A stretch of 15,049 nt of DNA from Nitrospiraceae bacterium. GTDB lineage: Bacteria > Nitrospirota > Nitrospiria > Nitrospirales > Nitrospiraceae. Each line of letters begins with the position of its first letter. Position 1 is the stretch's first letter. The position numbers and the translations under genes are program-made. The notes beneath the pieces were generated by a model. That model was not told the origin of the DNA. It worked only from the letters and a program-made list of their open reading frames with translations, and did no database searches. Positions 3,203-14,778 of the stretch are shown here, piece by piece. The DNA lies in the NCBI GenBank assembly GCA_005793285.1, contig SXPO01000077.1:1-15049 (forward strand). The letters are read 5' to 3'.

Positions 3203-3934
3203 TCATGACTGCGGGCCCAAGACCTCTTGCCAGATAACGGCCAGATCCTGGAGCGCTTTGCTTCCATCGCCCACGTAAACCGAACCGTGCATGGTCGCCA
3301 GTCGTTTCGGCTGTAGCGCCGCCAGCCGTTGCAGCGTCGCATCCGTCACGGTGCAATAGGGCATATAATTCGCCAACGGACCCTGCTGATACTCCACCAA
3401 TGTCTTCCGACACCGGTCGAGCACGTCCGACTCCGTCATCGGTTCCACGTTCCCGTCTTGGTGAAGGAGATCCGAGCACAAGAGCGTCCGTTCCGTCTCT
3501 TCAAACAGCAACCCCGCCTCCCAACAATGAGGCACATGCGGCGTCGCCAGAAAGCGGAAGCGGTATGTTCCCGTCCGGAGCACCTCCCCATCCATCATCC
3601 CTTTGGCAGGGCGAAGTGCGAGACAATCATCAACGCTCACCAACTTGCCCACCAGACTGCACACCGCCTGGGATTGCGGAGCCAGTTGCTGCCACTCCGG
3701 CAGAGTCGCGCATTCATCCGACTCAAAATGGCTGAATCCAATCCAACGCAATGTCTCCAAAGCAATGAGCGACGCCACGGCTGCTTTAACCTCAGCAAAC
3801 AAGGCTCGCGGCCCCGTATGAAACAGCAGCGGCTCGTCGTCACGCACCAAAAACTGGCTGAACTGAAGATTGATCGACTCGACGAATGTCGTGATGCGAA
3901 ACAGATCCGGAGCTATCTCAGTAACCTGCGCCAT
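3203..3934 (-). CDS. MBL-fold di-iron protein, ODP / flavodiiron-like domain without flavodoxin
   Basis: A 243-residue metallo-beta-lactamase-fold protein. The ligand pattern of flavodiiron proteins is complete: H69-x-E71-x-D73 (in 'FSHFESDEC'), H133 (in 'TPHVPH'), D155 (in 'CSDL') and H216 (in 'TMHGS'). Spacing agrees with the family pattern HxExD...H...D...H. There is no C-terminal flavodoxin or rubredoxin domain, so it belongs to the stand-alone group known as oxygen-binding di-iron proteins (ODP), some of which act as oxygen sensors or reductases. It is cytosolic, with no signal peptide. The start has AGGAAG 5 bases before the ATG. It is the last gene of a minus-strand run, 61 bases after the TPM-protein gene. 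Whether it binds or reduces oxygen or NO cannot be told. Confidence 0.8.
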
Positions 3935-3995: not shown

Positions 3996-4745
3996 TTACT
4001 TATATCCTTCCCCGCTGGTACCGCCGCCGAATCCACCCCAGTTGCCGCCGAATCCACCCTGCCCGGTTCCCCAATACTCGCCCTTCTGAATGCGGGAATA
4101 GGGATGGCGAAGATCCGGACGGCTGATCCACCAAAAGCACACAATGGCGACAAGGCTGGTGCCGAGCGCAAGCCAAAATCCAATGCCCCGGAAATGCGTT
4201 TTCGACAGAGTGCCGACGCGGACTTCTTGAGACGGCGCAGACAAGGCCACCGCTGTTCGATACAGCCCTTCGCCGAAATGGCCGAGATCGATCGCCGGCT
4301 GGAGGTATTGGCTCCCCGCCTCGCGCCTGATCTCCGGTGTGATGATCGGCAGCATCTGGCGTCCCAAGGTGATCGCCGCTTGCCGCTCCTGCACCGCGAC
4401 CAACACCATCACGCCATGCTCTTGCTGCGTGGAGCCGATGTGCCATTGCTCATAGAGCGCCGTCGCATACTCATTCGCCGACGAGAATGGCTGGATGCTG
4501 GGCACCGTCACGACGACCATCTCAACGCCGGTTTTCCGTTCAAGATCCTGACAGACTGAACGAATCCGCTCTTTCCACTCGGGATCGACCACCTGAGCAT
4601 GGTCGCTCACATAGCCCATCGGGCCGGGCAGCTGCGGACGGCTTTTCGGCCGGTCATAGAACGAAGACTGGCCCGCAGCCGGCCATGGCAACAGGACGCT
4701 CAATAACAACGCAGCGGCCATGTACGCAGTCCACACCCGCGTCAT
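3996..4745 (-). CDS. TPM-domain (TLP18.3/Psb32/MOLO-1) membrane protein
   Basis: A 249-residue exported protein. Residues 1-25 form a signal peptide ending 'WPAAGQ'. The TPM domain spans about residues 40-170, opening with 'GYVSDHAQVVDPEWKERI' and including 'TGVEMVVVTVPSI', 'HGVMVLVAVQERQAAITLG' and a helical end. One membrane helix follows near residues 185-207 (GFWLALGTSLVAIVCFWWI), then a cytoplasmic-like basic segment and a glycine-rich tail 'GGFGGNWGGFGGGTSGEGYK', a hallmark of many bacterial TPM proteins. The domain has been linked to acid-phosphatase activity in plants and to photosystem II repair; in bacteria its role is mostly unknown. The ATG overlaps the stop of the upstream gene (ATGA), so translation is probably coupled. 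Confidence 0.85.
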   Translation of the reverse strand: MTRVWTAYMAAALLLSVLLPWPAAGQSSFYDRPKSRPQLPGPMGYVSDHAQVVDPEWKERIRSVCQDLERKTGVEMVVVTVPSIQPFSSANEYATALYEQWHIGSTQQEHGVMVLVAVQERQAAITLGRQMLPIITPEIRREAGSQYLQPAIDLGHFGEGLYRTAVALSAPSQEVRVGTLSKTHFRGIGFWLALGTSLVAIVCFWWISRPDLRHPYSRIQKGEYWGTGQGGFGGNWGGFGGGTSGEGYK

Positions 4746-5500
4746 CTGTGTCCGATCTGCCGTTCCACCACATCAACCAATCGTCCGAGACCGTCGAAGT
4801 AGCGATCCATGACTCGCGGCATTTCCTTATGTCCTGGAGAAATGTGCCCCCGCTTGATCGACAGCGCTTCATGCAGGCCCGTCAGATCAATGACACAATA
4901 GTCTGCGAGATCCTTCACCAGAGGCTCGCCCTGCGACAGCACCGGCCTGCCCACCAGCCGTTGCACACCGCGCAGCACCGGCAATAACGCTGTAATCGAG
5001 AGGGGCAGCAACAACATCATCGACTCTTCCGTAGTTCCGCCTTCCACCAACCGCTGCCGCATGCGTACAAGATTGCCCCGTAGCGCTTGCAAGACTTCAC
5101 CGGCCAGATGATGTGGATCGACCTTGAACCCGATAAAGGGGTCCTGTCCCCACAACAGCCGATGACACTCCTGGATATCTTGATACTCCAATGGAAAAAC
5201 CAAGGCCGATGCCTGGAGGTCGGCCTTGGTGAGAAACAACGGCACCACGACCTGTTCTTTATTCCATTTTTTATGCACGCCGTCATAGGCCTTCAAGAGC
5301 GCCACGTCGTAGGAGCGGACGAACAGCAGAATGTTCAGATTCGACCGACCAGGTAGGAATTCTCCACGAACCGCACTGCCAAAGAGCAGTACCGCGTCGA
5401 GTTGCTCGCCGTAAGCCTGAGCCACGTCCTTCACATACGACCGCAGCAAGCGCTGCGTCTCGTCCGGCACCCCATCAATCGTCCATTCCACTGCCGACAT
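4742..5500 (-). CDS. Nucleotidyltransferase-fold protein with altered catalytic aspartates
   Basis: A 252-residue cytosolic protein. Residues 35-60 hold the DNA polymerase-beta-type nucleotidyltransferase start, 'AVLLFGSAVRGEF' followed by 'GRSNLNILLF'. G41-S42 and the surrounding arrangement are as in the superfamily, but the two metal-binding aspartates of the normal D-x-D motif are replaced by N54 and N56. It may therefore be inactive or use other residues. The rest (residues 130-250) is helical, as in KNTase/HEPN-like C-terminal regions, and has 'VDPHHLAGEVLQALRGNLVRMRQRLVEG'. I chose the ATG at 5500, 5 bases after the FAD monooxygenase stop and with a GGGG 8 bases upstream; a GTG at 5533 would overlap that gene. 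Confidence 0.7.
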   Translation of the reverse strand: MSAVEWTIDGVPDETQRLLRSYVKDVAQAYGEQLDAVLLFGSAVRGEFLPGRSNLNILLFVRSYDVALLKAYDGVHKKWNKEQVVVPLFLTKADLQASALVFPLEYQDIQECHRLLWGQDPFIGFKVDPHHLAGEVLQALRGNLVRMRQRLVEGGTTEESMMLLLPLSITALLPVLRGVQRLVGRPVLSQGEPLVKDLADYCVIDLTGLHEALSIKRGHISPGHKEMPRVMDRYFDGLGRLVDVVERQIGHR

Positions 5501-5504
5501 CCTG

Positions 5505-6785
5505 TTACCCCGCCCCTCTCGCCACACCCTCACGTGCGTGCGCCGCAGGGTCCGGAAGAAACCCCGCCGCCATCAACCGATCCGCCATACCAAACGGAGG
5601 AATAGCTCGCAGTCCCGCCGTCGTGGACAACACGCGATAACGCAGCCGCTCGTTGCGATCCAGGGTGCGGAATACTCGGTCGCGTAGGAACGCAACTATG
5701 GGATTCGCCGTGTTCCAAAACAACACTTGCTCATCCGCCAGGCGCTGGAGCATGGCGATCTGAGGCCGGCGCGCGTGTTCGAAACGCTTGAGCCGCTCGG
5801 CGGAATAATCATGTGATGCCAGACACTCAGGCAACAGATCCGCCAGCGTCATCGCATCCACCATCGCCTGCATACGTCCCTGGGACGCATGGGGATTCAT
5901 CGCATGTGCCGCATCCCCGATGAGCACCGCGCCGTCGGCAACCCACGTCGGCGTACGCACACGCCCGGTCGGCATGAAGGCGGTTTGATTCCAATCGGTC
6001 AGCGCCCGAAACAGCATTTCGTTAGACGGATCAATGGCGGTCCATGCCTGTTGCAAGGCAGGCAGGCCCTGCGATTTGACCCGGTCGTATGAGCCGGTAT
6101 CGATCATATAAAAGAGATAGACCTTGTTCCCCGCGGCAGGAAACATGCCGAGGATCGTCCGCTTGCCGACAAAATATTTCGCCTCGGTCACCGGCGTAGG
6201 CGCATCCACAATCGCGATCAGATACCCCTGCGGATACAGATGCAGATCGGCGGGAATCTGCAAGGCCTCCCGAACTTTTGAAAACGCCCCATCGGCGCCG
6301 ACAACCACCTTGGCTTTTATGGTGATCTCATCGGTTCCCTTCTTCGCCATCAGCCCGACAACCCGACCGTTCTCCTTGAGAAGACCGGTGAACGCAGCTC
6401 CATACCAGAGGGCCACGGAGGGCTGGGTCTGAATCGCATCCAGAATGGCATGGTGCGCCACATTCGGCAGCGTCACCACCGCCCGATTGTACGGAGCCGG
6501 CAGATCGCCGTAATCCACCGTGCAGAGCCGCTCGCCGCCGACCTTGCAGAAATGGAACCAGCGCACCGTGCGTGTCGCATCGGCAGGCAGCTTGTTCAAC
6601 AATCCAAGCTGATCGAGCACCCGTTGCCCGTTCGGTTGCAGAATCTCGCCACGCAGACCTCGCGGCGGTCCGGGGGCCTGTTCCAATACAATGGTCTTGA
6701 TCCCCTTCTGCGCCAAGGCAAGGGCCAGCACCGCCCCGCCGCCACCGGCTCCGACCACCGCAATGTCAGTTTCTTCACTCCTCAC
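5505..6785 (-). CDS. FAD-dependent monooxygenase (aromatic hydroxylase / UbiH-like)
   Basis: A 426-residue flavoprotein of the class A monooxygenase superfamily. The three FAD motifs are present: 'IAVVGAGGGGAVLALALAQKG' near residues 8-28 (GxGxxG), 'VVVGADGAFSKVRE' around residue 165 (DG motif), and 'AVLIGDAAHAMNPHASQG' near residue 285 (GD motif). The usual 'GQG.N..MEDA' after the GD motif appears here as 'ASQGRMQAMVDAMTLADLL'. No signal peptide or membrane segment is clear. Enzymes of this class hydroxylate phenols, quinone precursors or related substrates with O2 and NAD(P)H; the substrate is not evident. The start is a GTG, not an ATG, and the sequence before it (6786-6844) is a G-rich spacer on the minus strand. 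It is followed closely by the nucleotidyltransferase-like gene. Confidence 0.85.
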   Translation of the reverse strand: MRSEETDIAVVGAGGGGAVLALALAQKGIKTIVLEQAPGPPRGLRGEILQPNGQRVLDQLGLLNKLPADATRTVRWFHFCKVGGERLCTVDYGDLPAPYNRAVVTLPNVAHHAILDAIQTQPSVALWYGAAFTGLLKENGRVVGLMAKKGTDEITIKAKVVVGADGAFSKVREALQIPADLHLYPQGYLIAIVDAPTPVTEAKYFVGKRTILGMFPAAGNKVYLFYMIDTGSYDRVKSQGLPALQQAWTAIDPSNEMLFRALTDWNQTAFMPTGRVRTPTWVADGAVLIGDAAHAMNPHASQGRMQAMVDAMTLADLLPECLASHDYSAERLKRFEHARRPQIAMLQRLADEQVLFWNTANPIVAFLRDRVFRTLDRNERLRYRVLSTTAGLRAIPPFGMADRLMAAGFLPDPAAHAREGVARGAG

Positions 6786-6844: not shown

Positions 6845-7408
6845 TCACTTCCATTCCTCGAATCGAGTTCGGTCCTTCCACATCGACAGAAACTTCTCGC
6901 GGGATTGTACCGCGATCGGATGGTCTCTGATGACATCCAGGCGTTCATCGTTATAGCGATTACCGCTGGTCGTATGATTCATCGACCCGCTGGCCGTCAC
7001 CTCATCATCGACCACCACTTGCTTCAGGTGCATGAGACCGTCGTGCCGATTGACCATGACGGGAATCCCGGCTTCCCGGAGAGCGGATACGGCCCTCCGT
7101 TGATTGGGATCGTTGAGCCGCTCGCGGTCGGTGATCACACGGACATCCACACCATGTTTTCTGGCATTCAGCAGCGCTTTGACCACAATGGGGGACGTAA
7201 GTCCATACACAGCCACGAAGATGTACCGCGTCGCCTGCTCATAAATCTGCGCAACCTTTTGCAGCGGCTCATCCTCGGGTGAGTACCAGACCTCTATCGA
7301 CGCGGCGGAGACTCCCCCGCTCGTCACGCTCAGCACCGCGACGAGCGACCAGATCAGCAGACTTGCGCAACACCTCGAATGCGCATCAGATCGGCGGAGC
7401 CCCATCAT
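6845..7408 (-). CDS. Secreted phospholipase D-like nuclease, single HKD motif
   Basis: A 187-residue protein, the length of the single-motif PLD nucleases (Nuc, PLD6) that act as dimers. Residues 15-35 form an export signal ending 'GGVSA', so the mature protein probably begins at A36. The HKD motif is complete: H127-x-K129 with D134 four residues after the lysine, and 'GSMN' at 141-144, in 'MHLKQVVVDDEVTASGSMN'. Nuc-type enzymes cut DNA or RNA, or hydrolyse phospholipids, through a phosphohistidine intermediate. The gene starts 2 bases after the stop of the upstream ORF, with AGGA abutting the first ATG; the second ATG (7405) may be the true start and would drop one residue. It probably acts outside the cytoplasm. 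Confidence 0.82.
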   Translation of the reverse strand: MMGLRRSDAHSRCCASLLIWSLVAVLSVTSGGVSAASIEVWYSPEDEPLQKVAQIYEQATRYIFVAVYGLTSPIVVKALLNARKHGVDVRVITDRERLNDPNQRRAVSALREAGIPVMVNRHDGLMHLKQVVVDDEVTASGSMNHTTSGNRYNDERLDVIRDHPIAVQSREKFLSMWKDRTRFEEWK

Positions 7409-8181: not shown

Positions 8182-8249
8182 CGTCACGCAGCGTCAAGCG
8201 GCACGGCGCTTCTTTCCACGTCCGCTTGAACGCGCAGTTAGACGTGACG
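8182..8249. repeat. Nested inverted repeats over the end of the antitoxin gene, weakly attC-like
   Basis: Two nested arm pairs: outer CGTCACG (8182-8188) with CGTGACG (8243-8249), inner TCAAGCGG (8194-8201) with CCGCTTGA (8222-8229). The left gap is 5 bases and the right gap 13. On the minus strand the right part reads GTCTAAC-TGCGCGT-TCAAGCGG and the left part CCGCTTGA-CGCTGCGTGACG. This recalls the R''-L''...L'-R' order of an integron attC site, with a good R''-like GTCTAAC but no GTTRRRY at the other end. It could equally be an ordinary hairpin; there is no T-run for a terminator. Confidence 0.3.
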
Positions 8250-8517
8250 ACTTTTCGACGAAACGACCAGCTACGAACTTATGCAATACGCTGGCAATAA
8301 GCGTTTGGTAGGGAACACCTTCTTCTGCGGCACGAACCTGGATTTCAGAAAGGTCAGGTGTAGACAACCTGATATTGACACGCTTGTTCTTGCTGAGGGT
8401 CGCACGCGCATACTCGCGATACCGACGCAGGGACGCTTCGGAGGTTACCGTTGATTGAAGCTCGCCAGATTCGAAAGCCGACAGAATTTGCTTCTCATAA
8501 CGATCAAGAGATTTCAT
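8194..8517 (-). CDS. CopG-type ribbon-helix-helix antitoxin (BrnA-like)
   Basis: A 107-residue protein. The DNA-binding strand and helices are 'NKRVNIRLSTPDLSEIQVRAAEEGVPYQTLIASVLHKFVAGRF' around residues 44-86, which is the usual ribbon-helix-helix antitoxin pattern. An N-terminal acidic and helical part (residues 1-40) and a strongly basic C-terminal tail (SSGRGKKRRAA) flank it. It should bind the toxin and repress the operon. Its ATG overlaps the toxin stop by four bases (ATGA), and it lies downstream of the toxin gene, as in BrnT/BrnA pairs. The last codons contain the inverted repeat at 8182-8249. The lower G+C than in neighbouring genes suggests acquisition. Confidence 0.85.
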   Translation of the reverse strand: MKSLDRYEKQILSAFESGELQSTVTSEASLRRYREYARATLSKNKRVNIRLSTPDLSEIQVRAAEEGVPYQTLIASVLHKFVAGRFVEKSSRLTARSSGRGKKRRAA

Positions 8518-8795
8518 GGTTTCCCTCTCATTCCATATTCGCGCATTGCTTTACGACTAGGGATAATCGTTTTCAGAAAGACGTACTCTGCTTCGTCTAT
8601 ATGTGGCACGAGATACACATAGGAAGTAATTGCCACAACAAAAACACCCTGGCTTGGATAACGAGCAGGATTGGGGTGTCCCACAACATCCAATAATCCG
8701 CCGGACTCAATAGCCAGCACCACATCCTCAAAAGAAACGCCACGACTTGCTTTAAGCTGTTCGTTCTTCTGGAAATTCCAATGGAAAGTTTTCAC
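8514..8795 (-). CDS. BrnT-like toxin of a type II toxin-antitoxin pair
   Basis: A 93-residue protein of the BrnT-like group. 'FHWNFQKNEQLKASRGVSFEDVVLAIESGGLLD' at the N-terminus and 'FVVAITSYVYLVPHIDEAEYVFLKTIIPSRKAM' at the C-terminus follow the family pattern. Members that have been tested are RNases that block growth until bound by the partner antitoxin. I chose the GTG at 8795 rather than the ORF's upstream ATGs for two reasons: family similarity begins at that codon, and a near-consensus promoter (8802-8830) would place the transcript start on the G of this GTG. The gene would then be translated from a leaderless message. The antitoxin gene follows with a 4-base overlap. Confidence 0.82.
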   Translation of the reverse strand: MKTFHWNFQKNEQLKASRGVSFEDVVLAIESGGLLDVVGHPNPARYPSQGVFVVAITSYVYLVPHIDEAEYVFLKTIIPSRKAMREYGMRGKP

Positions 8796-8801
8796 CCGGG
8801 A

Positions 8802-8830
8802 ATTATATACACGCCGGTGCCTTTTGTCAT
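8802..8830 (-). promoter_or_regulatory. Near-consensus sigma70 promoter of the toxin-antitoxin operon
   Basis: On the minus strand, ATGACA (8825-8830) and a perfect TATAAT (8802-8807) are separated by 17 bases. The expected start, 7 bases past the -10 box, is base 8795, the first base of the toxin's GTG. This is the best promoter match in the window. The CCCGGG at 8795-8800 is a small palindrome that an autorepressor could use. Confidence 0.65.
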
Positions 8831-8885
8831 CAGGTGGCAGAGAACAACCCACTGTGTCTAACGCGGCTATCTGACCATTTCTCAT

Positions 8886-8913
8886 GGGTGTTATGCAGAT
8901 CGGCATAACACCC
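8886..8913. repeat. Perfect 11-base inverted repeat with 6-base loop
   Basis: GGGTGTTATGC (8886-8896) and GCATAACACCC (8903-8913) are exact reverse complements around AGATCG. It lies upstream of the toxin promoter and marks the left border of the carrier-cluster upstream region. There is no T-run, so it is not a standard terminator. It could be an operator, a hairpin, or the trace of a mobile element end. Confidence 0.55.
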
Positions 8914-9148: not shown

Positions 9149-9349
9149 ATGCAGGTGAAGATCAACGGAAAATCAGAGGAAGTCCAGGGGGGAACCGTCC
9201 TCGACTTGCTCACGGCCAAAAAGATCGAACCTCAAATGGTCGCTGTCGAGGTCAATGACAAAGTCCTGGATCGCGAGCACCTTGGCGCCACGCCCCTCAA
9301 CGAAGGAGACCAGGTTGAGTTTCTGTTCTACATGGGAGGAGGCCGGTGA
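9149..9349 (+). CDS. thiS: ThiS-like sulfur-carrier protein with C-terminal GGGR
   Basis: A 66-residue ubiquitin-fold carrier, the usual ThiS length. It begins 'MQVKINGKSEEVQGGTVLDLL', has the ThiS-like 'VAVEVNDKVLDREH', and ends 'GDQVEFLFYMGGGR'. The C-terminal glycine of such carriers is adenylated and converted to a thiocarboxylate. Here an arginine follows the glycines, so the tail must be trimmed before activation, unless Arg is tolerated. The JAMM protease encoded at 13869 could do this. I placed the start at ATG 9149, with GGGAG about 6 bases upstream, rather than at the in-frame TTG at 9137. Its neighbour is a cysteine synthase, not thiamine genes, so a role in cysteine synthesis is more likely than in thiamine synthesis. 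The symbol reflects the family only. Confidence 0.8.
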   Translation: MQVKINGKSEEVQGGTVLDLLTAKKIEPQMVAVEVNDKVLDREHLGATPLNEGDQVEFLFYMGGGR

Positions 9350-9351
9350 CG

Positions 9352-10275
9352 ATGGTGCTGCACAAAGAAATCACTGAGCTGATCGGGAATACCCCGCTCG
9401 TCCGGTTGAACCGGCTGTCAAAACCAGGCGCCGCCACGATCTACGGCAAAGTGGAGTTTTTCAATCCCGGCGGCAGCGTCAAGGACCGGATTTGCCTCAA
9501 CATGATCAATGAGGCGGAACGCCAGGGCAAACTCAAACCAGGCGGAACCATCGTTGAGCCGACCAGCGGGAATACCGGTATCGGCCTGGCCTTGGTCGCA
9601 GCGGTTCGCGGTTATAAGCTGATCCTAGTCATGCCGGAAAGCATGAGCATGGAGCGGGCCAGCTTGCTGTCATCCTACGGCGCGCAGCTCGTCCTGACTC
9701 CGGCCTGGGAAGGCATGAAAGGCTCGATCAAAGAAGCGGAAAGCATCTTGGCGCAGAATCCCTCGTATGTCATGCCGGATCAGTTTTCCAACCCGGCTAA
9801 TCCGGCCATACACCGGATGACGACGGCGGTTGAAATTTGGGATGCGCTGAATGGACAGGTGGATGCGTTTGTCGCGGCAGTTGGAACCGGAGGCACGATC
9901 ACGGGGTGCGGTGAAGTGTTCAAGGAAAAGAATCCGGCCGTGAAGGTCATTGCCGTGGAACCGGCTGGATCGCCGGTGTTGTCCGGCGGCGACCCTGGTC
10001 CGCACAAGATCCAAGGGATCGGCGCGGGCTTCATTCCCAAGGTCTTAAATCGAGCAATTCTTGACCGCGTGATCACCGTGACCGACGACGAGGCCTATCA
10101 GACCGCCAAGCAATTGTCGAAAAAAGAAGGCCTGTTGGTCGGCATCTCAGCCGGCGCCAACGTGTTCGCTGCGCAGAAAGTTGCCGATGAATTGGGGGCC
10201 GGGAAAAACGTGGTGACGATTCTCTGCGACACCGGCGAGCGGTATATCAGCATCGAGAAGTATTTCAATATATAA
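9352..10275 (+). CDS. cysK: Cysteine synthase (O-acetylserine sulfhydrylase type)
   Basis: A 307-residue fold-type II PLP enzyme. The PLP lysine is K44 in 'NPGGSVKDR', the substrate loop is 'PTSGNTGIGLA', the phosphate-binding loop is 'GTGGTITG', and the end is 'CDTGERYISIEKYFNI'. The loop 'HKIQGIGAGFIP' is the canonical form of O-acetylserine enzymes and differs from Mycobacterium CysM, where an arginine in this loop selects O-phosphoserine. Sulfide or a thiocarboxylated carrier would supply sulfur. The gene follows the ThiS-like carrier with almost no gap; a GTG overlaps its stop (GTGA) at 9346, but I prefer ATG 9352, which has AGGAGG 9 bases upstream. Whether it uses sulfide or the carrier cannot be settled by sequence. 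Confidence 0.88.
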   Translation: MVLHKEITELIGNTPLVRLNRLSKPGAATIYGKVEFFNPGGSVKDRICLNMINEAERQGKLKPGGTIVEPTSGNTGIGLALVAAVRGYKLILVMPESMSMERASLLSSYGAQLVLTPAWEGMKGSIKEAESILAQNPSYVMPDQFSNPANPAIHRMTTAVEIWDALNGQVDAFVAAVGTGGTITGCGEVFKEKNPAVKVIAVEPAGSPVLSGGDPGPHKIQGIGAGFIPKVLNRAILDRVITVTDDEAYQTAKQLSKKEGLLVGISAGANVFAAQKVADELGAGKNVVTILCDTGERYISIEKYFNI

Positions 10276-10311
10276 GAACGCTGAAAATGACTTCAAACTT
10301 TGAGCGTTCTT
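10274..10311. repeat. Hairpin between cysK and the first E1 gene
   Basis: AAGAACGCT and AGCGTTCTT form a 9-base perfect stem; after one G-G mismatch, AAA and TTT extend it, leaving a 12-base loop. It overlaps the cysK stop codon and ends 17 bases before the ATG of the next gene. No T-run follows, so it is more likely an RNA-processing or stability hairpin, or an attenuator, than a complete terminator. Confidence 0.6.
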
Positions 10312-10327
10312 GGCACCGCTGAGTAAG

Positions 10328-11140
10328 ATGGAATTTACTGAAGAGCAAATAAATCGCTACAGCCGGCATATCCTGTTGCCGGAAGTCGGCGGCAAGGGAC
10401 AGAAGAAGATCGCCAAGGCGAAAATTCTTCTGGTCGGCGCCGGTGGACTCGGCTCGCCGGCTGCCCTGTACTTGGCAGCCGCCGGAGTAGGCCGGATCGG
10501 CCTGATCGACAGCGATGTGGTGGACTTGACCAATCTGCAGCGCCAAATTCTCCATCACACACCGGATGTCGGGCGTCCGAAGGTCCTGTCCGGAAAAGAA
10601 AAGATTCACGCGTTGAATCCTGATGTGGCCGTCTCGATGTACGAAGAACGCTTGACCGCCGGGAACGCGCTGAAAATCTTCGCCGACTACGATGTCGTCA
10701 TCGACGGGGTCGACAATTTCACGGCGAAATTTCTGATCAACGATGCCTGTTTCTTCGCCGGGAAACCGCTGGTGCATGGCGGCATTCTGCGCTTCGACGG
10801 CCGGGTGACGACGATCATCCCCAAGCAATCGGCTTGCTACCGCTGCGTCTTCAAATCGCCTCCGCCGCCCGGCTTAGTTGCCTCCTGTCAGGAAGCGGGC
10901 GTCATCGGCGTATTGGCCGGTATTATTGGTACGATCCAAGCTACAGAGTCCTTGAAGCTGGTGCTCGGCATCGGCCGTCCACTGACGAACCGTATGCTCG
11001 ACTTCGATGCGCGCAAGACACAGTTTCGTGAAATCAAAGTCCGCCGCAATCCCAATTGCGCACTCTGCGGCGAGCACCCAACGATCACCGAATTGTTCGA
11101 CGATGGAGATCCCTATGCCGGCTGTGCGGCGCATCCTTAA
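10328..11140 (+). CDS. moeB: MoeB/ThiF-type E1-like activating enzyme, first copy
   Basis: A 270-residue enzyme that adenylates the C-terminal glycine of a ubiquitin-like carrier. It has the nucleotide loop 'GAGGLGSPA' at residues 37-45, the aspartate cluster 'DSDVVDLTNLQRQ' at 61-73, 'DGVDNF' at 126-131, a conserved cysteine C187 in 'SCQEAGVIGVLAG', and a zinc site made by C170/C173 and C244/C247. No rhodanese domain is attached, so a sulfur donor must act from elsewhere. I chose ATG 10328, where family similarity ('F..EQ..RYSRH') starts; only a weak GAG lies upstream. Position after thiS and cysK suggests it activates the ThiS-like carrier. moeB is the family symbol; a molybdopterin role is not implied. 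Confidence 0.85.
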   Translation: MEFTEEQINRYSRHILLPEVGGKGQKKIAKAKILLVGAGGLGSPAALYLAAAGVGRIGLIDSDVVDLTNLQRQILHHTPDVGRPKVLSGKEKIHALNPDVAVSMYEERLTAGNALKIFADYDVVIDGVDNFTAKFLINDACFFAGKPLVHGGILRFDGRVTTIIPKQSACYRCVFKSPPPPGLVASCQEAGVIGVLAGIIGTIQATESLKLVLGIGRPLTNRMLDFDARKTQFREIKVRRNPNCALCGEHPTITELFDDGDPYAGCAAHP

Positions 11141-11167
11141 TCACAGATTGCCGAAGGTGGTGCTACG

Positions 11168-12418
11168 ATGAGCAAAATGAAAGCGCTGGTGTGCCGCGAG
11201 TGCGGGAAAGAATACCCGACCAAAGCGATTCACGTCTGCGAGATGTGTTTCGGTCCGCTCGAGGTGAAGTACAACTACGAAGAAATCAAAAAGACGATCT
11301 CCCGCAAGAAGATCGAGGGCGGCCCCCACAGCATGTGGCGCTATCTCGATCTGCTGCCGGTCGAAAGCACAAATTTCGTCGGGCCCCATGCCGGATTCAC
11401 GCCGTTGGTCCGCGCCAAGAATCTCGGCGCTTATCTCGGCCTGGACGAGCTCTACATCAAGAACGACACGGTGAATCACCCCACCCTGTCCTTTAAAGAT
11501 CGTGTGGTCGCCGTCGCCTTGACCCGCGCCAGAGAATTGGGTTTTGAGACCGTGGCCTGCGCTTCGACCGGGAACCTGGCTAATTCGGTGTCGGCCCATG
11601 CCGCATCGGCTAATCTGCATTGTTACGTATTCATCCCCGGCGATCTCGAAGCCGCCAAAGTGCTCGGCAATCTGATCTACAAGCCGCACGTCGTCGAAGT
11701 GGAGGGCAACTACGACGACGTCAACCGGCTGTGCAGCGAAATTGCCGGTGAACACGGCTGGGCATTCGTCAATATCAACATTCGCCCCTACTATGCGGAA
11801 GGCTCCAAAACCCTCGCCTTTGAAACCGTAGAACAGCTGGGTTGGAGAACCCCCGATCAAGTCGTCATTCCAATGGCATCCGGCTCGTTGTTGACCAAAA
11901 TTTGGAAGGGTCTGCATGAGCTGAAGTACGTGGGGCTGATCAATGAGGTGCAGACGAAAATCAACGGGGCCCAAGCAGAAGGGTGCTCGCCGATTTCTAC
12001 TGCCTTCAAGGCCGGCCGTGACTTCTTCAAACCGGTGAAGCCGAAAACCATCGCGAAGTCACTGGCGATCGGCAACCCGGCCGACGGCTACTATGCCCTG
12101 AAGACGACCGCCGAGAGCAACGGCGCCATGGACATGGTCACCGACGAAGAAGTGGTGGAAGGCATCCAGCTGCTCGCGCAAACCGAAGGCATCTTCGCCG
12201 AAACGGCCGGCGGCGTGACCATCGGTGTGCTCAAGAAGCTGGTGAAACAAGGTCTCATCAAGAAGAACGAGATGACGGTCGCCTATATTACGGGCAATGG
12301 ATTGAAGACACAGGAGGCGGTCATCGATGCCGTCGGACGGCCGACCCGCATTCAACCGAGCCTCGTCGCGTTTGAGAAAACCTTTAAACTCGGGAAAACC
12401 GGTGGTGGTGACGCATGA
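11168..12418 (+). CDS. thrC: Threonine-synthase-type PLP enzyme with N-terminal zinc ribbon
   Basis: A 416-residue fold-type II PLP enzyme, close to the usual ThrC length in archaea and some bacteria. The first 30 residues hold a zinc ribbon (C9, C12, C24, C27). The PLP lysine is K110 in 'HPTLSFKDR', followed by '[15 protein letters not shown]' and the loops 'MASGSLLTK' and '[11 protein letters not shown]'. ThrC normally makes threonine from O-phosphohomoserine. Here it sits between an E1 gene and a CysO-like carrier, its stop overlapping the carrier ATG (ATGA), which is not where a pure threonine gene is expected. One possibility is that it replaces the phosphate of O-phosphohomoserine with sulfur from the carrier, giving homocysteine; that is inference. 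AAGGTGG 7 bases upstream supports the ATG at 11168. Confidence 0.82.
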
Positions 12419-12687
12419 TTAAAGTCCGTATTCCGACTCCGCTGAGACCGCTGACGAAAAACCAGGGTGAAGTCGATGTGGCCGCCGGCTCTGTTGCGGA
12501 CATGGTCGACAGGCTGGAGGCGTCTTATCCAGGTATCAAGTCGCGCCTCTGCGATGACAGCGGCGAATTGCGCCGGTTCGTCAACATCTATGTCAACGAA
12601 GAAGACATCCGGTTCTTGAAGGGCAAAGACACCGTACTGAAAACCGGAGACGAAGTCTCAATCGTGCCGGCCATTGCGGGAGGCTAA
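12415..12687 (+). CDS. CysO/MoaD-like sulfur-carrier protein ending in GG
   Basis: A 90-residue ubiquitin-fold carrier with an exposed diglycine end, '[12 protein letters not shown]'. It is longer than ThiS and has the features of Mycobacterium CysO: an early 'IPTPLRPLT', '[34 protein letters not shown]', and a C-terminal '-P-A-x-A-G-G'. CysO carries a thiocarboxylate that CysM uses to make cysteine, with Mec releasing the amino acid. Here it overlaps the ThrC-like gene and not the CysK gene. Because GG is already terminal, no trimming is needed. The overlap with the previous gene suggests coupled production of an equal amount of both. Confidence 0.88.
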
Positions 12688-12689
12688 CT

Positions 12690-12938
12690 ATGGCACATGT
12701 CTCACACTTGCGATTTCACGTCCGGTTTCCGGAAGACAAAGTGAAGGAGCCGATCATTTACCAGATCGGCCGTGAATACAACATCGTCACCAACGTGCGC
12801 CGCGCCGACGTGCGCGAAACCACGGGCTGGGTCGATGTCGAACTGTCCGGCGAAACGGCGGAAATCGAGCGCGCAATCGAAGGCCTACGCAAAAAAGGTT
12901 GTGTCGTCGATCCGATCGAATTGAACGTAGTGGAATGA
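12690..12938 (+). CDS. NIL-domain protein
   Basis: An 82-residue stand-alone NIL domain, spanning nearly the whole protein: 'HLRFHVRFPEDKVKEPIIYQIGREYNIVTNVRRADVRETTGWVDVELSG' and 'IEGLRKKGCVVDPIE'. NIL domains, an ACT-like fold, are found on the methionine ABC transporter MetN and near ferredoxins in methionine and homocysteine synthesis, so a link to sulfur amino acids is expected. It has no catalytic motif and is probably a binding or regulatory subunit, maybe of the ThrC-like enzyme or the E1. It starts 2 bases after the carrier stop with GGGAGG 6 bases upstream. Confidence 0.85.
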   Translation: MAHVSHLRFHVRFPEDKVKEPIIYQIGREYNIVTNVRRADVRETTGWVDVELSGETAEIERAIEGLRKKGCVVDPIELNVVE

Positions 12939-12944
12939 CAGGAA

Positions 12945-13015
12945 CGTGAAGCGCACTTCGTGAAGCGTATCTCGTCAGAGGATCGCGCTTCACGCTTCAC
13001 GAGCGACGAGATACG
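12945..13015. repeat. REP-like palindromic element before the second E1 gene
   Basis: The spacer is built of CGTGAAGCG words (12945-12953 and 12959-12967) and their reverse complements CGCTTCACG (12986-12994 and 12993-13001), plus an 11-base exact inverted repeat CGTATCTCGTC (12966-12976) / GACGAGATACG (13005-13015). The transcript could fold into a branched hairpin. Its right arm ends 6 bases before the ATG of the next gene, where a ribosome site should be. A second, shorter stretch of the same flavour (GTGACGCGTGAAACG) lies at 13828-13845 before the JAMM gene. Elements of this type are known as repeated intergenic palindromes in other genomes. Confidence 0.6.
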
Positions 13016-13021
13016 ATCATT

Positions 13022-13825
13022 ATGGAACTCACTGAATCAGAAATTCAACGCTACAGCCGGCATATCATTCTCCAGGATGTCGGCGGCAAGGGACAACTCA
13101 AGCTCAAGCGGGCGAAAGTCCTGCTGATCGGCGCGGGAGGCCTCGGCTCGCCGGCCGGACTCTATCTGGCCGCCGCAGGCATCGGCACCATTGGATTGGT
13201 CGACGGCGACGTGGTTGACCTGTCGAACCTGCAACGGCAGATCATGCACTCGACTGCCACGCTGGGCCAGCCGAAGGTCGAATCCGGAAAGAACACGCTC
13301 TCGGCCATCAATACCGAGATCACCATCAACGCCTATCACCAGTTGGTCGATGCCCAGAATATTCTCCCGCTCATTTCCCAATACAATATCGTACTCGACG
13401 GCTCGGATAACTTTACAACCCGGTTCCTGGTCAATGACGCCTGCTTCTTCGCTAAGAAGACGCTGATTTCAGCCAGCATGTTCCGGTTCGAGGGGCAGTT
13501 GACGACGATCAAGCCGCATCAAGGGTATCCCTGCTACCGCTGTCTCTATCCTGAGCCACCGCCGGCCGGCTTAGTCCCGAATTGCCAGGAGGCCGGGGTC
13601 TTGGGAGTGTTGGCCGGTACCATGGGAGTCTTGCAAGCCTCTGAAGCCATCAAGGAAGTGCTCGGCATCGGCGAAACCATTGCCGACAAGCTGTTGATCT
13701 ACGACGCGCTCGACATGAAATTCCGCAAAGTGGGACGCCCCAAAGATCCGGCCTGTCCACTCTGTGGGCCGAACCCAAAGATCACAGATCTCAGCATGGA
13801 CTATGCCGTCAGCTGCACGATTTGA
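13022..13825 (+). CDS. moeB: MoeB/ThiF-type E1-like activating enzyme, second copy
   Basis: A 267-residue paralogue of the E1 at 10328, similar along its whole length. It has 'GAGGLGSPAGLYLAAAGIG' at 37-55, 'DGDVVDLSNLQRQ' at 61-73, 'DGSDNF' at 126-131, C188 in 'NCQEAGVLGVLAG', and zinc ligands C171/C174 and C245/C248. Its neighbours are the CysO-like carrier, the NIL protein and the JAMM protease, so it probably activates the CysO-like carrier, while the first copy serves the ThiS-like one. Cross-activity is possible. No good ribosome site is visible; the palindromic element just upstream covers that region. It has no rhodanese domain. Confidence 0.85.
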   Translation: MELTESEIQRYSRHIILQDVGGKGQLKLKRAKVLLIGAGGLGSPAGLYLAAAGIGTIGLVDGDVVDLSNLQRQIMHSTATLGQPKVESGKNTLSAINTEITINAYHQLVDAQNILPLISQYNIVLDGSDNFTTRFLVNDACFFAKKTLISASMFRFEGQLTTIKPHQGYPCYRCLYPEPPPAGLVPNCQEAGVLGVLAGTMGVLQASEAIKEVLGIGETIADKLLIYDALDMKFRKVGRPKDPACPLCGPNPKITDLSMDYAVSCTI

Positions 13826-13868
13826 ACGTGACGCGTGAAACGCAAGACGGAAACGGACACTAGCTACC

Positions 13869-14378
13869 GTGGCCGACATCATCATTCCCCAGCACATTCT
13901 CGATGACATGATCGCCCACGCGCGCGAGTTGGCTCCGCATGAATGCTGCGGACTCCTGGCTGGAACGGGCAGCGTGGTGAGCCGGATCTACCGCATCAAG
14001 AACATCGTGGCGATGGAAGGCGCGCAGAATCTTTCGTCCTTCGATTCTGCCAAAGTGGCGCACTTGGAGCGGCTCTCTCCAGCTGAACGGGCGGAAATCG
14101 CCTTCGTCATGGACATGCAGGATTTTTCAACCGCCAAGAAAGATATGCGCAATAACGGCCTGGACCTGCAAGTGGTCTATCATTCCCATCCTCACGATCC
14201 GGCCAGGCCCTCTGTGACCGACATCAAGATCGCCACCGATTACGAAGAAATCTGGCCCAAGATCAACCTGCCGATTCCCGTCTATCTCCTGATTTCCCTC
14301 ATGCATGCAACGCCGGATGTTCGATCCTACTGGATCAAATCCGGACAGGTCTCCACCGCTCCGTTCACCGTTCAGTGA
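13869..14378 (+). CDS. mec: JAMM/MPN+ metalloprotease, Mec-type
   Basis: A 169-residue zinc protease with a complete JAMM motif: E25 in 'PHECCGLLAG', H105 and H107 in 'YHSHPHDPARPSVTD', S115 and D118. In Mycobacterium, Mec releases the newly formed amino acid from the carrier (CysO-cysteine). In Wolinella, HcyD removes a C-terminal residue from the carrier. Both jobs fit here: one carrier ends in GG and the other in GGGR. The start is a GTG at 13869, where family similarity begins, 43 bases after the E1 stop, with only a weak ribosome site. It is the last gene of the cluster. The symbol reflects the family. Confidence 0.85.
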   Translation: MADIIIPQHILDDMIAHARELAPHECCGLLAGTGSVVSRIYRIKNIVAMEGAQNLSSFDSAKVAHLERLSPAERAEIAFVMDMQDFSTAKKDMRNNGLDLQVVYHSHPHDPARPSVTDIKIATDYEEIWPKINLPIPVYLLISLMHATPDVRSYWIKSGQVSTAPFTVQ

Positions 14379-14460: not shown

Positions 14461-14778
14461 ATGCGCATTATTGTTTTCGCACTCTTCTTCAGCGCGACCT
14501 TGGTCAGTACAAGCCTTGCGGTCGAGAAAAGCTACTACAGCCCAGTCATTCACATCGACGTCGACAATCACCGCATCCTGATCTCCCAGCTCGGTGGAGT
14601 CTTCTACGTCGATGTCCCGGAAGTCGCGCGGCCCCACATGGAGAAGCTGCCGATTTCAGGACTGGTGGATTTTGTGGTGGACTGGAAAAGCGACGATCAG
14701 ATGCCCGTGATTAAAACCTGGAAGGTCAAATCCGGCGAATCAACCTGCCTGTACTTCAACGGGAAAGAGTGTCAGTAG
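14461..14778 (+). CDS. Small secreted protein, unknown function
   Basis: A 105-residue protein. AAGGAG lies 8 bases before ATG 14461, which makes it the start. Residues 1-20 form a signal peptide ending 'STSLA', so the mature protein begins near V21. The mature part is about 85 residues, with 'VIHIDVDNHRILISQLGGVFYVDVPEVARPHMEKLPISGLVDFVVDWKSD' and a C-terminal pair of cysteines ('GESTCLYFNGKECQ') that could form a disulfide in the envelope, perhaps by the DsbA-like protein. I know no function. It has its own promoter and converges with the next gene. Confidence 0.7.
   Translation: MRIIVFALFFSATLVSTSLAVEKSYYSPVIHIDVDNHRILISQLGGVFYVDVPEVARPHMEKLPISGLVDFVVDWKSDDQMPVIKTWKVKSGESTCLYFNGKECQ

Follow-up and report, generated by a model that had tools for sequence, protein, structure and literature searches.

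A cluster of eight genes in a 15,049-nucleotide contig of a Nitrospiraceae bacterium (GenBank assembly GCA_005793285.1, contig SXPO01000077.1; hereinafter the window, meaning this whole stretch) is likely to constitute a sulfur-amino-acid factory that operates on protein-bound sulfur. Its core is a threonine synthase-like pyridoxal phosphate (PLP) enzyme, which we term ThrC-A, paired with a CysO-like sulfur carrier, carrier2. ThrC-A acting with the thiocarboxylate of carrier2 most likely makes homocysteine, the precursor of methionine, while a ThiS-type carrier (carrier1) and a CysK-type enzyme would furnish cysteine, with a NIL domain protein and a JAMM metalloprotease completing the system. 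The centrality of the ThrC-A/carrier2 pair goes beyond the original prediction made from the window, which had placed two parallel carrier pathways side by side. The observed support comes from the anatomy of the cluster, its conservation, the co-occurrence of ThrC-A with carrier2, the complementarity of ThrC-A with known homocysteine synthases, natural gene fusions and changes at otherwise conserved residues.

The cluster spans positions 9149–14378 and its eight open reading frames, all on the + strand, have family matches that bear out the predicted order: carrier1, CysK, a first carrier-adenylating enzyme (E1a), ThrC-A, carrier2, NIL, a second such enzyme (E1b) and JAMM. Successive genes are spaced by 2, 49, 27, −4 (an overlap), 2, 83 and 43 nucleotides (nt), the 49 being counted to position 10325. 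ThrC-A (11168–12418) has an N-terminal Cys4 ribbon and is overlapped by the gene for carrier2 (12415–12687), a CysO/SAMP1-like protein of 90 amino acids (aa) with the C-terminus AIAGG (PF02597, 61 bits), followed by the stand-alone NIL domain protein (12690–12938; 82 aa; PF09383, 53.5 bits against a cut-off of 24). Carrier1 (9149–9349) is a ThiS-type sulfur carrier of 66 aa ending in MGGGR (TIGR01683, 60 bits; ThiS structures 2k5p and 3cwi), and next to it lies the PLP-dependent CysK-type cysteine synthase (9352–10275; TIGR01139, 462 bits against a cut-off of 351), for which GTG 9346 and ATG 9352 are both possible starts. E1a (10328–11140; 270 aa; PF00899, 286 bits), which starts at ATG 10328 (10325 reads AAG), and E1b (13022–13825; 267 aa; PF00899, 263 bits) are MoeB/ThiF-like, share 55% identity, and each display GAGGLG, SCQEAGV or NCQEAGV, and two CxxC pairs on a ThiF domain without a rhodanese domain; both score highest with a MoeB model. 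The JAMM metalloprotease (13869–14378, start codon GTG 13869) belongs to PF14464 (72 bits), with no match to PF01398 in its own genome at E 0.001, and its motif is complete (HECCG and HSHPHDPARPSVTD). A Pfam scan of the eight genes revealed no thiG, moaE or tRNA-thiolase and no member of PF01053. The surrounding assembly amounts to 1.47 Mb in 276 contigs and is about 55% complete.

While ThrC-A passes the TIGR00260 threonine synthase cut-off (296 against 167 bits), finds its closest solved folds among threonine synthases, and is labeled threonine synthase in each named entry among the best 120 proteins, several lines of evidence set it apart from the classic enzyme. The window protein is 68% identical to P0128 of Aquifex aeolicus, and shares the fold but only ~36% identity with the solved A. 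aeolicus threonine synthase (2zsj), which is of the other, 350-residue type and lacks the ribbon. Across the genomes of Aquificota (our presumed name for the phylum of the Hydrogenobacter genome G126), ThrC-A scores at least 700 bits as against at most 257 bits for other matches; in the phylum of the Syntrophaceae record G138 the corresponding figures are at least 669 and at most 380 bits. The two types usually occur in the same genome, with a second ThrC match beside ThrC-A in 36/41 Nitrospirota genomes and another in all 31 ThrC-A-bearing Aquificota genomes. Moreover, 25 class-diagnostic positions separate ThrC-A (31 sequences) from classic ThrC (13 sequences), for example, L137/T87, Y209/R159, A300/R241 and R206/N156 (31/31 vs 13/13), and ThrC-A does not keep residues that are invariant in the accompanying classic ThrC. 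By these sequence relationships ThrC-A is a discrete family. More distant ThrC relatives at six loci (233–301 bits, tblastn) were also examined; five have other motifs, with no carrier found in 4.7–7 kb, and the sixth is L233, described below.

In 40 Nitrospirota loci, hand-picked from the 118 genomes to span families, the same-order recurrence that the original prediction had proposed as a check is indeed seen: the complete set of eight genes is found in the same order in 21 (L031–L050, and L070, where the ThrC-A match is partial), which argues that the order is not a product of chance. The two carriers from different families, the two E1s and the two PLP enzymes are thus conserved together, which supports the original prediction. 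Two further loci have seven genes, with JAMM missing (L051, L052), and one has seven in a different order (L057). In 13 of the 40, a second, classic thrC comes after a core of ThrC-A, carrier2 and NIL, and L068 has the core only, while L059 and L060 code for carrier2, NIL, JAMM and E1 without a thrC. As ThrC-A, carrier2 and NIL are found together in 38/40 loci, they comprise the constant core of the system. The NIL protein was matched in 112 of the 118 genomes of the phylum, and ThrC-A is 93–94% identical in the clusters L133, L142 and L162 from records labeled Nitrospira sp. or Nitrospiraceae, which suggests a Nitrospira-like bacterium as the host of the cluster.

Beyond Nitrospirota, a scan of named genomes (one per species) recovered at least 591 stretches encoding a ThrC-A relative, of which the best 80 were used. 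Their labels include Nitrospirota, Omnitrophota, Elusimicrobia, Aquificota, Nitrospinota, Methylomirabilota, Rokubacteria, Mariprofundus (Zetaproteobacteria), Deltaproteobacteria/Desulfobacterota, Poribacteria, Verrucomicrobia and Actinomycetes. Among the 76 of these 80 loci with at least 600 nt of sequence downstream, the start of carrier2 lies no more than 600 nt past the end of ThrC-A in 65 and no more than 2 kb past it in 69, the remaining seven being from Aquificota (three) and Poribacteria (four). Within 5 kb of ThrC-A we find NIL in 57, E1 in 43, cysK in 40, JAMM in 26 and carrier1 in 20 of the 76 loci, counts that are lower bounds given that the sequence around a locus is often shorter than 5 kb; in many loci the ThrC-A/carrier2 pair occurs without the CysK branch. 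The best 120 ThrC-A proteins include those of A. aeolicus (P0128), A. pyrophilus, Hydrogenobacter thermophilus TK-6 and Thermocrinis, and a protein from an Acidimicrobiia metagenome-assembled genome (P0335) shares 68% identity with the actinobacterial query L155. A search with carrier2 returned 7999 proteins and gave no distribution, the named ones among the best 120 being nearly all from Nitrospirota.

The phyletic pattern of ThrC-A is complementary to that of two families linked to homocysteine synthesis: PF01053, which we take to comprise MetB, MetC, MetY and MetZ, and PF01837 (DUF39). These searches recovered PF01053 in 13/14 and PF01837 in 3/14 control genomes. We examined 41 Nitrospirota genomes, namely 36 of the 40 hand-picked ones (without G098, G051, G034 and G080) along with G000, G006, G007, G013 and G058. 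ThrC-A is present in 38 of them (in G008 by a partial match), and of these 38, PF01053 is found in 8, DUF39 in none and neither in 30. Overall, PF01053 is absent from 31/41 genomes and DUF39 from 40/41, the latter including the window's own at 55% completeness. Where ThrC-A is missing (three genomes), PF01053 (G015, G058) or DUF39 (G013) is present. The presence of a standard sulfhydrylation route, named as a refuting condition of the original prediction, is thus mostly not borne out, with neither family in 30 of the 38 genomes, although 8 have PF01053. In Aquificota the split is sharper: ThrC-A is present in 31/41 genomes and PF01053 in 0/41, while DUF39 is seen in none of the 31 genomes with ThrC-A and in all 10 without it (Fisher p 8.9e-10). 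In the phylum of G138, ThrC-A is found in 13/98 genomes, 7 of which have neither PF01053 nor DUF39; PF01053 occurs in 3 and DUF39 in 5 (once as fragments), with two genomes having both. Among 26 ThrC-A-negative genomes from this phylum (every third of 85), both routes are missing in only one (G234, in which a more distant relative of ThrC occurs; p 7.5e-4). Summed over the three phyla, 68/82 genomes with ThrC-A lack both families as compared to 1/39 without it (Nitrospirota 0/3, Aquificota 0/10, the phylum of G138 1/26). PF01053 is likewise absent from 30 of 45 named ThrC-A genomes of unstated completeness, sampled from 52 loci labeled other than Nitrospirota (leaving out L098, L105, L107, L109, L118, L131 and L132), some of which (e.g., G126, G131 and G138) are also counted above. 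While a single switch could explain the split in Aquificota, the tendency repeats in three phyla, and we conclude that ThrC-A tends to stand in for known homocysteine synthases. MetX was not found in any of 71 genomes at E 1e-20 (7/14 controls positive, none over the cut-off), suggesting that O-phosphohomoserine is most likely the activated homoserine at hand, MetA not having been searched for.

Carrier2 tracks ThrC-A even where the genes are apart. A profile search (at least 125 bits) recovered it in 30 of the 31 Aquificota genomes with ThrC-A as against 0/10 of those with DUF39 (p 9.8e-9), although it lies within 1.5 kb of ThrC-A in just 10 of 30 loci. Such co-occurrence without linkage points to a shared function. 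It is also present in 5/5 genomes sampled from the 13 with ThrC-A in the phylum of G138. Carrier2 scores just below the SAMP1 and MoaD-family cut-offs (57 vs 60 and 46.5 vs 49.5 bits, respectively), and its best solved relative is 3dwg_C (E 4.8e-21), which is listed as the 9.5 kDa culture filtrate antigen cfp10A and which we take to be CysO in complex with CysM. CysM is, like ThrC-A, a fold-type-II PLP enzyme. The two carriers of the cluster belong to different families, with no meaningful similarity. Unfused carrier2 proteins have 0–7 residues past GG and unfused carrier1 proteins 1–6 past GGG; such variable tails call for a protease, and the cluster includes JAMM.

In phyla other than that of the window, carrier2 and NIL are fused in a single open frame at 12 loci (L098, L101, L103, L115, L125, L132, L196–L199, L213 and L220), joined via a PAIAGG motif with the GG inside the chain; these amount to ten distinct sequences, L125 and L197 being the same, as are L132 and L199. 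Hence, the NIL protein, which had been seen as common to both pathways, looks tied to the ThrC-A/carrier2 branch. All 13 NIL proteins examined match PF09383 at E 0.01, and the profile built from them picks up the C-terminal domain of MetN, the ATPase of the methionine transporter (3dhx, E 8e-9; 3tui, 1e-7), a domain that is presumably methionine-binding. Based on this relationship, we propose that NIL is a methionine/homocysteine sensor or an accessory subunit. In G013, with DUF39 instead of ThrC-A, the gene 3′ of DUF39 codes for a NIL protein whose cysteines follow a ferredoxin-like pattern, an arrangement matching the description of the DUF39 pathway in the part of PMC5764234 considered here.

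Carrier1 and CysK similarly form one open frame, with GGG inside the chain, in L051 (10771–11892, −) and L052 (4289–5422, +), and no JAMM was found in 16 kb at either locus. Although carrier1 passes the TIGR01683 cut-off for the thiamine protein ThiS, its position and these fusions favor a partnership with CysK. The CysK protein itself lies under the CysM cut-offs (295 vs 394 and 299 vs 413 bits), scoring as an ordinary cysteine synthase A that may use sulfide too. Of the predicted use of carrier1 by CysK, then, the conserved order and two fusions speak in favor; the branch is plausible and we are less sure of it than of its ThrC-A counterpart, for which homocysteine as the product fits these relationships well.

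From the Wolinella pathway discussed below, and from CysO–CysM–Mec as described in the part of PMC3227635 considered here, we infer the following chemistry, including the substrate and the pairing of E1s with carriers, of which E1a may serve carrier1 and E1b carrier2. An E1 would adenylate the C-terminal glycine of carrier2, with sulfur loading then giving carrier2-COSH. ThrC-A would eliminate the leaving group of an activated homoserine, probably O-phosphohomoserine, to form a β,γ-unsaturated PLP species, to which the carrier thiocarboxylate would add at Cγ, rather than water at Cβ, to yield carrier2-homocysteine. An S-to-N shift and subsequent cleavage by JAMM would free homocysteine, and JAMM may additionally trim carriers with residues past GG in a Mec/QbsD-like role. 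NIL would sense methionine or homocysteine, or aid the synthase, and carrier1 with CysK would yield cysteine in like manner.

This scheme shares several elements with characterized systems. Wolinella HcyS–HcyD–HcyF, by the account of Krishnamoorthy and Begley in 2011, reportedly makes homocysteine from a carrier thiocarboxylate, with a PLP enzyme that we take to be of the O-acetylhomoserine sulfhydrylase superfamily (PF01053). It resembles the present cluster in bringing together a carrier, E1 and JAMM with a PLP enzyme, but the enzyme here is ThrC-type, of another fold type, and PF01053 is lacking in 31/41 Nitrospirota and 41/41 Aquificota genomes. The mycobacterial CysO–CysM–Mec–MoeZR system for cysteine, whose Mec we take to be a JAMM protease, likewise has a CysO-type carrier ending in GG, a PLP enzyme of the same fold type, an E1 and a JAMM-type protease with a complete motif. 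It differs in that the PLP enzymes of our cluster are ThrC-A and a TIGR01139-type CysK, rather than CysM-type, that E1a and E1b lack the rhodanese domain of MoeZR, and that the cluster adds NIL and a second, ThiS-type carrier with CysK, its predicted product being homocysteine. The DUF39 and NIL/ferredoxin pathway of Methanosarcina and Desulfovibrio (PMC5764234) has the NIL domain and the same metabolic slot in common with ThrC-A, but names no carrier or ThrC-type enzyme in the part of that paper considered here; DUF39 and ThrC-A are mutually exclusive in 41/41 Aquificota genomes, but occur together in 5 of the 13 genomes with ThrC-A from the phylum of G138. Operons combining a carrier, E1, JAB and cysteine synthase have been known since 2006, one class having O-acetylhomoserine sulfhydrylase, and row 4e of Iyer 2006 has Wolinella among those with a carrier, JAB, E1 and that enzyme; in its main text, as far as considered here, neither "threonine synthase" nor words starting with "NIL" occur. 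The terms "thiocarboxylate", "Aquifex" and "Nitrospira" are similarly absent from the portion of the GapMind main text considered. Among the open-access papers listed by our literature searches (a scope exclusive of subscription papers and preprints), none was seen to describe a homocysteine synthase of the ThrC type or the present cluster. What looks new is thus the enzyme for the key step, amino acid synthesis from protein thiocarboxylates being already known.

The threonine synthase label itself raises the alternative that ThrC-A is merely a second threonine synthase that carrier2 adjoins for another purpose. The names of the entries among the matches listed, the TIGR00260 score and the best solved folds are all compatible with this; however, another ThrC match is already present in 36/41 Nitrospirota genomes and 31/31 Aquificota genomes with ThrC-A, the solved A. 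aeolicus threonine synthase is of the other type, 25 positions distinguish the classes, and a redundant enzyme would not be expected to track the absence of DUF39 (41/41) and the presence of carrier2 (40/41) in Aquificota, so we regard this account as improbable. We give equally little credence to the idea that ThrC-A uses carrier2-COSH in a β-replacement to make cysteine or cysteate-like products, as CysM does with O-phosphoserine. The CysO-like nature of carrier2, the fold type common to CysM and ThrC-A, and the presence of cysK within 5 kb of ThrC-A in 40/76 loci would fit such a role, but CysK-type genes are already present in the same clusters, NIL points towards methionine, and most ThrC-A genomes are without the homocysteine synthases sought (cysteine synthases were not searched for).

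ThrC-A might also make homocysteine from free sulfide or another donor, with carrier2 serving as a regulator or SAMP1-like protein tag. This is in keeping with the SAMP1-like character of carrier2, and with the four Poribacteria loci and G182, in which ThrC-A is present and carrier2 was not found; yet the tracking of ThrC-A by carrier2 in Aquificota though unlinked (30/31 vs 0/10), the presence of E1 and JAMM within 5 kb in 43/76 and 26/76 loci, respectively, and the CysO–CysM precedent make it unlikely. Least probable of these alternatives, in our view, is that both carriers and both E1s work for thiamine, molybdopterin or tRNA thiolation, with sulfur supply the only reason for their place in the operon: carrier1 exceeds the ThiS cut-off and both E1s score highest with the MoeB model, but the eight genes include no thiG, moaE or tRNA-thiolase, the best solved relative of carrier2 is CysO and not MoaD, and the observed fusions join carrier1 to CysK and carrier2 to NIL.

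Against carrier-dependent homocysteine synthesis by ThrC-A stand several observations, among them the persistence of PF01053 or DUF39 in some genomes. PF01053 proteins occur in 8 of the 38 Nitrospirota genomes with ThrC-A and in 15 of the 45 named ones, and PF01053, DUF39 or both persist in 6 of the 13 genomes that have ThrC-A in the phylum of G138. We considered whether such PF01053 proteins are the true homocysteine synthases of ThrC-A genomes and largely rejected it: among 10 of 12 such proteins scanned, the methionine gamma-lyase model TIGR01328 is best for 8, with none over the cut-off among the matches listed, and the 8 proteins from 7 of the 8 Nitrospirota genomes are nearest to methionine gamma-lyase (6), cystathionine beta-lyase (1) and cystathionine gamma-synthase (1). 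The protein at L080 (G110), cystathionine-gamma-synthase-like at 404 bits (cut-off 513), cannot be so dismissed. Further, the p-values given above ignore descent, the genomes being related and the counts not independent events. Carrier2 was not found in G182, either by profile or in the surrounding 8.5 kb, and the Poribacteria loci L143, L148, L149 and L150 have a ThrC-A (64–66% identity) without carrier2 nearby, with PF01053 in three of the four genomes. With respect to the substrate, R159 of classic ThrC is presumably phosphate-binding; O-phosphohomoserine is uncertain because arginines conserved in the classic enzyme are lost, and the changes could mean a different substrate for ThrC-A. The edge of the family is also not sharp, since a divergent relative (41%) at L233 (2668–4227, +) keeps ThrC-A motifs, STGNLA among them, and has a carrier2 relative directly 3′ of it but shows a changed NxNxRPYY motif; it is a possible second subfamily. 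Finally, the open-access papers listed by our searches brought up no biochemistry on ThrC-A.

Several neighbors of the cluster were also noted. A small protein with a signal-like N-terminus and no Pfam match is encoded directly 3′ of JAMM (14461–14778, +) and is kept 3′ of the cluster in 13/13 loci of the same genus, family and order (35–80% identity). On the − strand, two overlapping small genes (8194–8906) likely code for a toxin–antitoxin pair that by eye we take to be BrnT-like; the downstream one (8194–8517) has a weak CopG antitoxin match (PF12441, 26.6 bits, cut-off 28) and the other (8514–8906) no Pfam match. Unrelated genes on the same opposite strand encode an ODP-family metallo-β-lactamase (3206–3934), a protein with a weak nucleotidyltransferase match (4745–5533), an FAD-binding protein (5508–6785) and a PLD-like protein (6848–7408). 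A search of Rfam gave nothing at gathering scores.

On balance, we lean towards the view that ThrC-A and its CysO-like carrier constitute a further, hitherto undescribed route to homocysteine, in which a fold-type-II enzyme of threonine-synthase descent would draw its sulfur from a protein thiocarboxylate. This route would extend over multiple phyla (Nitrospirota, Aquificota, Omnitrophota, Nitrospinota, Methylomirabilota, Zetaproteobacteria, Actinomycetota and others); in Nitrospira the carrier1–CysK branch would be added, such that both products are carrier-built under the control of a methionine-binding NIL protein. According to the part of a 2018 study considered here (PMC5764234), A. aeolicus, Pyrolobus fumarii and Acidimicrobium ferrooxidans are without any known homocysteine route. 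The first of these encodes ThrC-A (P0128), and with carrier2 it offers a testable candidate for this published gap in Aquifex, as also for most of the Nitrospirota examined, with ThrC-A in 38/41 genomes and no known route found in 30 of these. If true, the "threonine synthase" label would be corrected for a family matched by at least 591 stretches, and one PLP fold would have moved from water to a protein-bound sulfur nucleophile.

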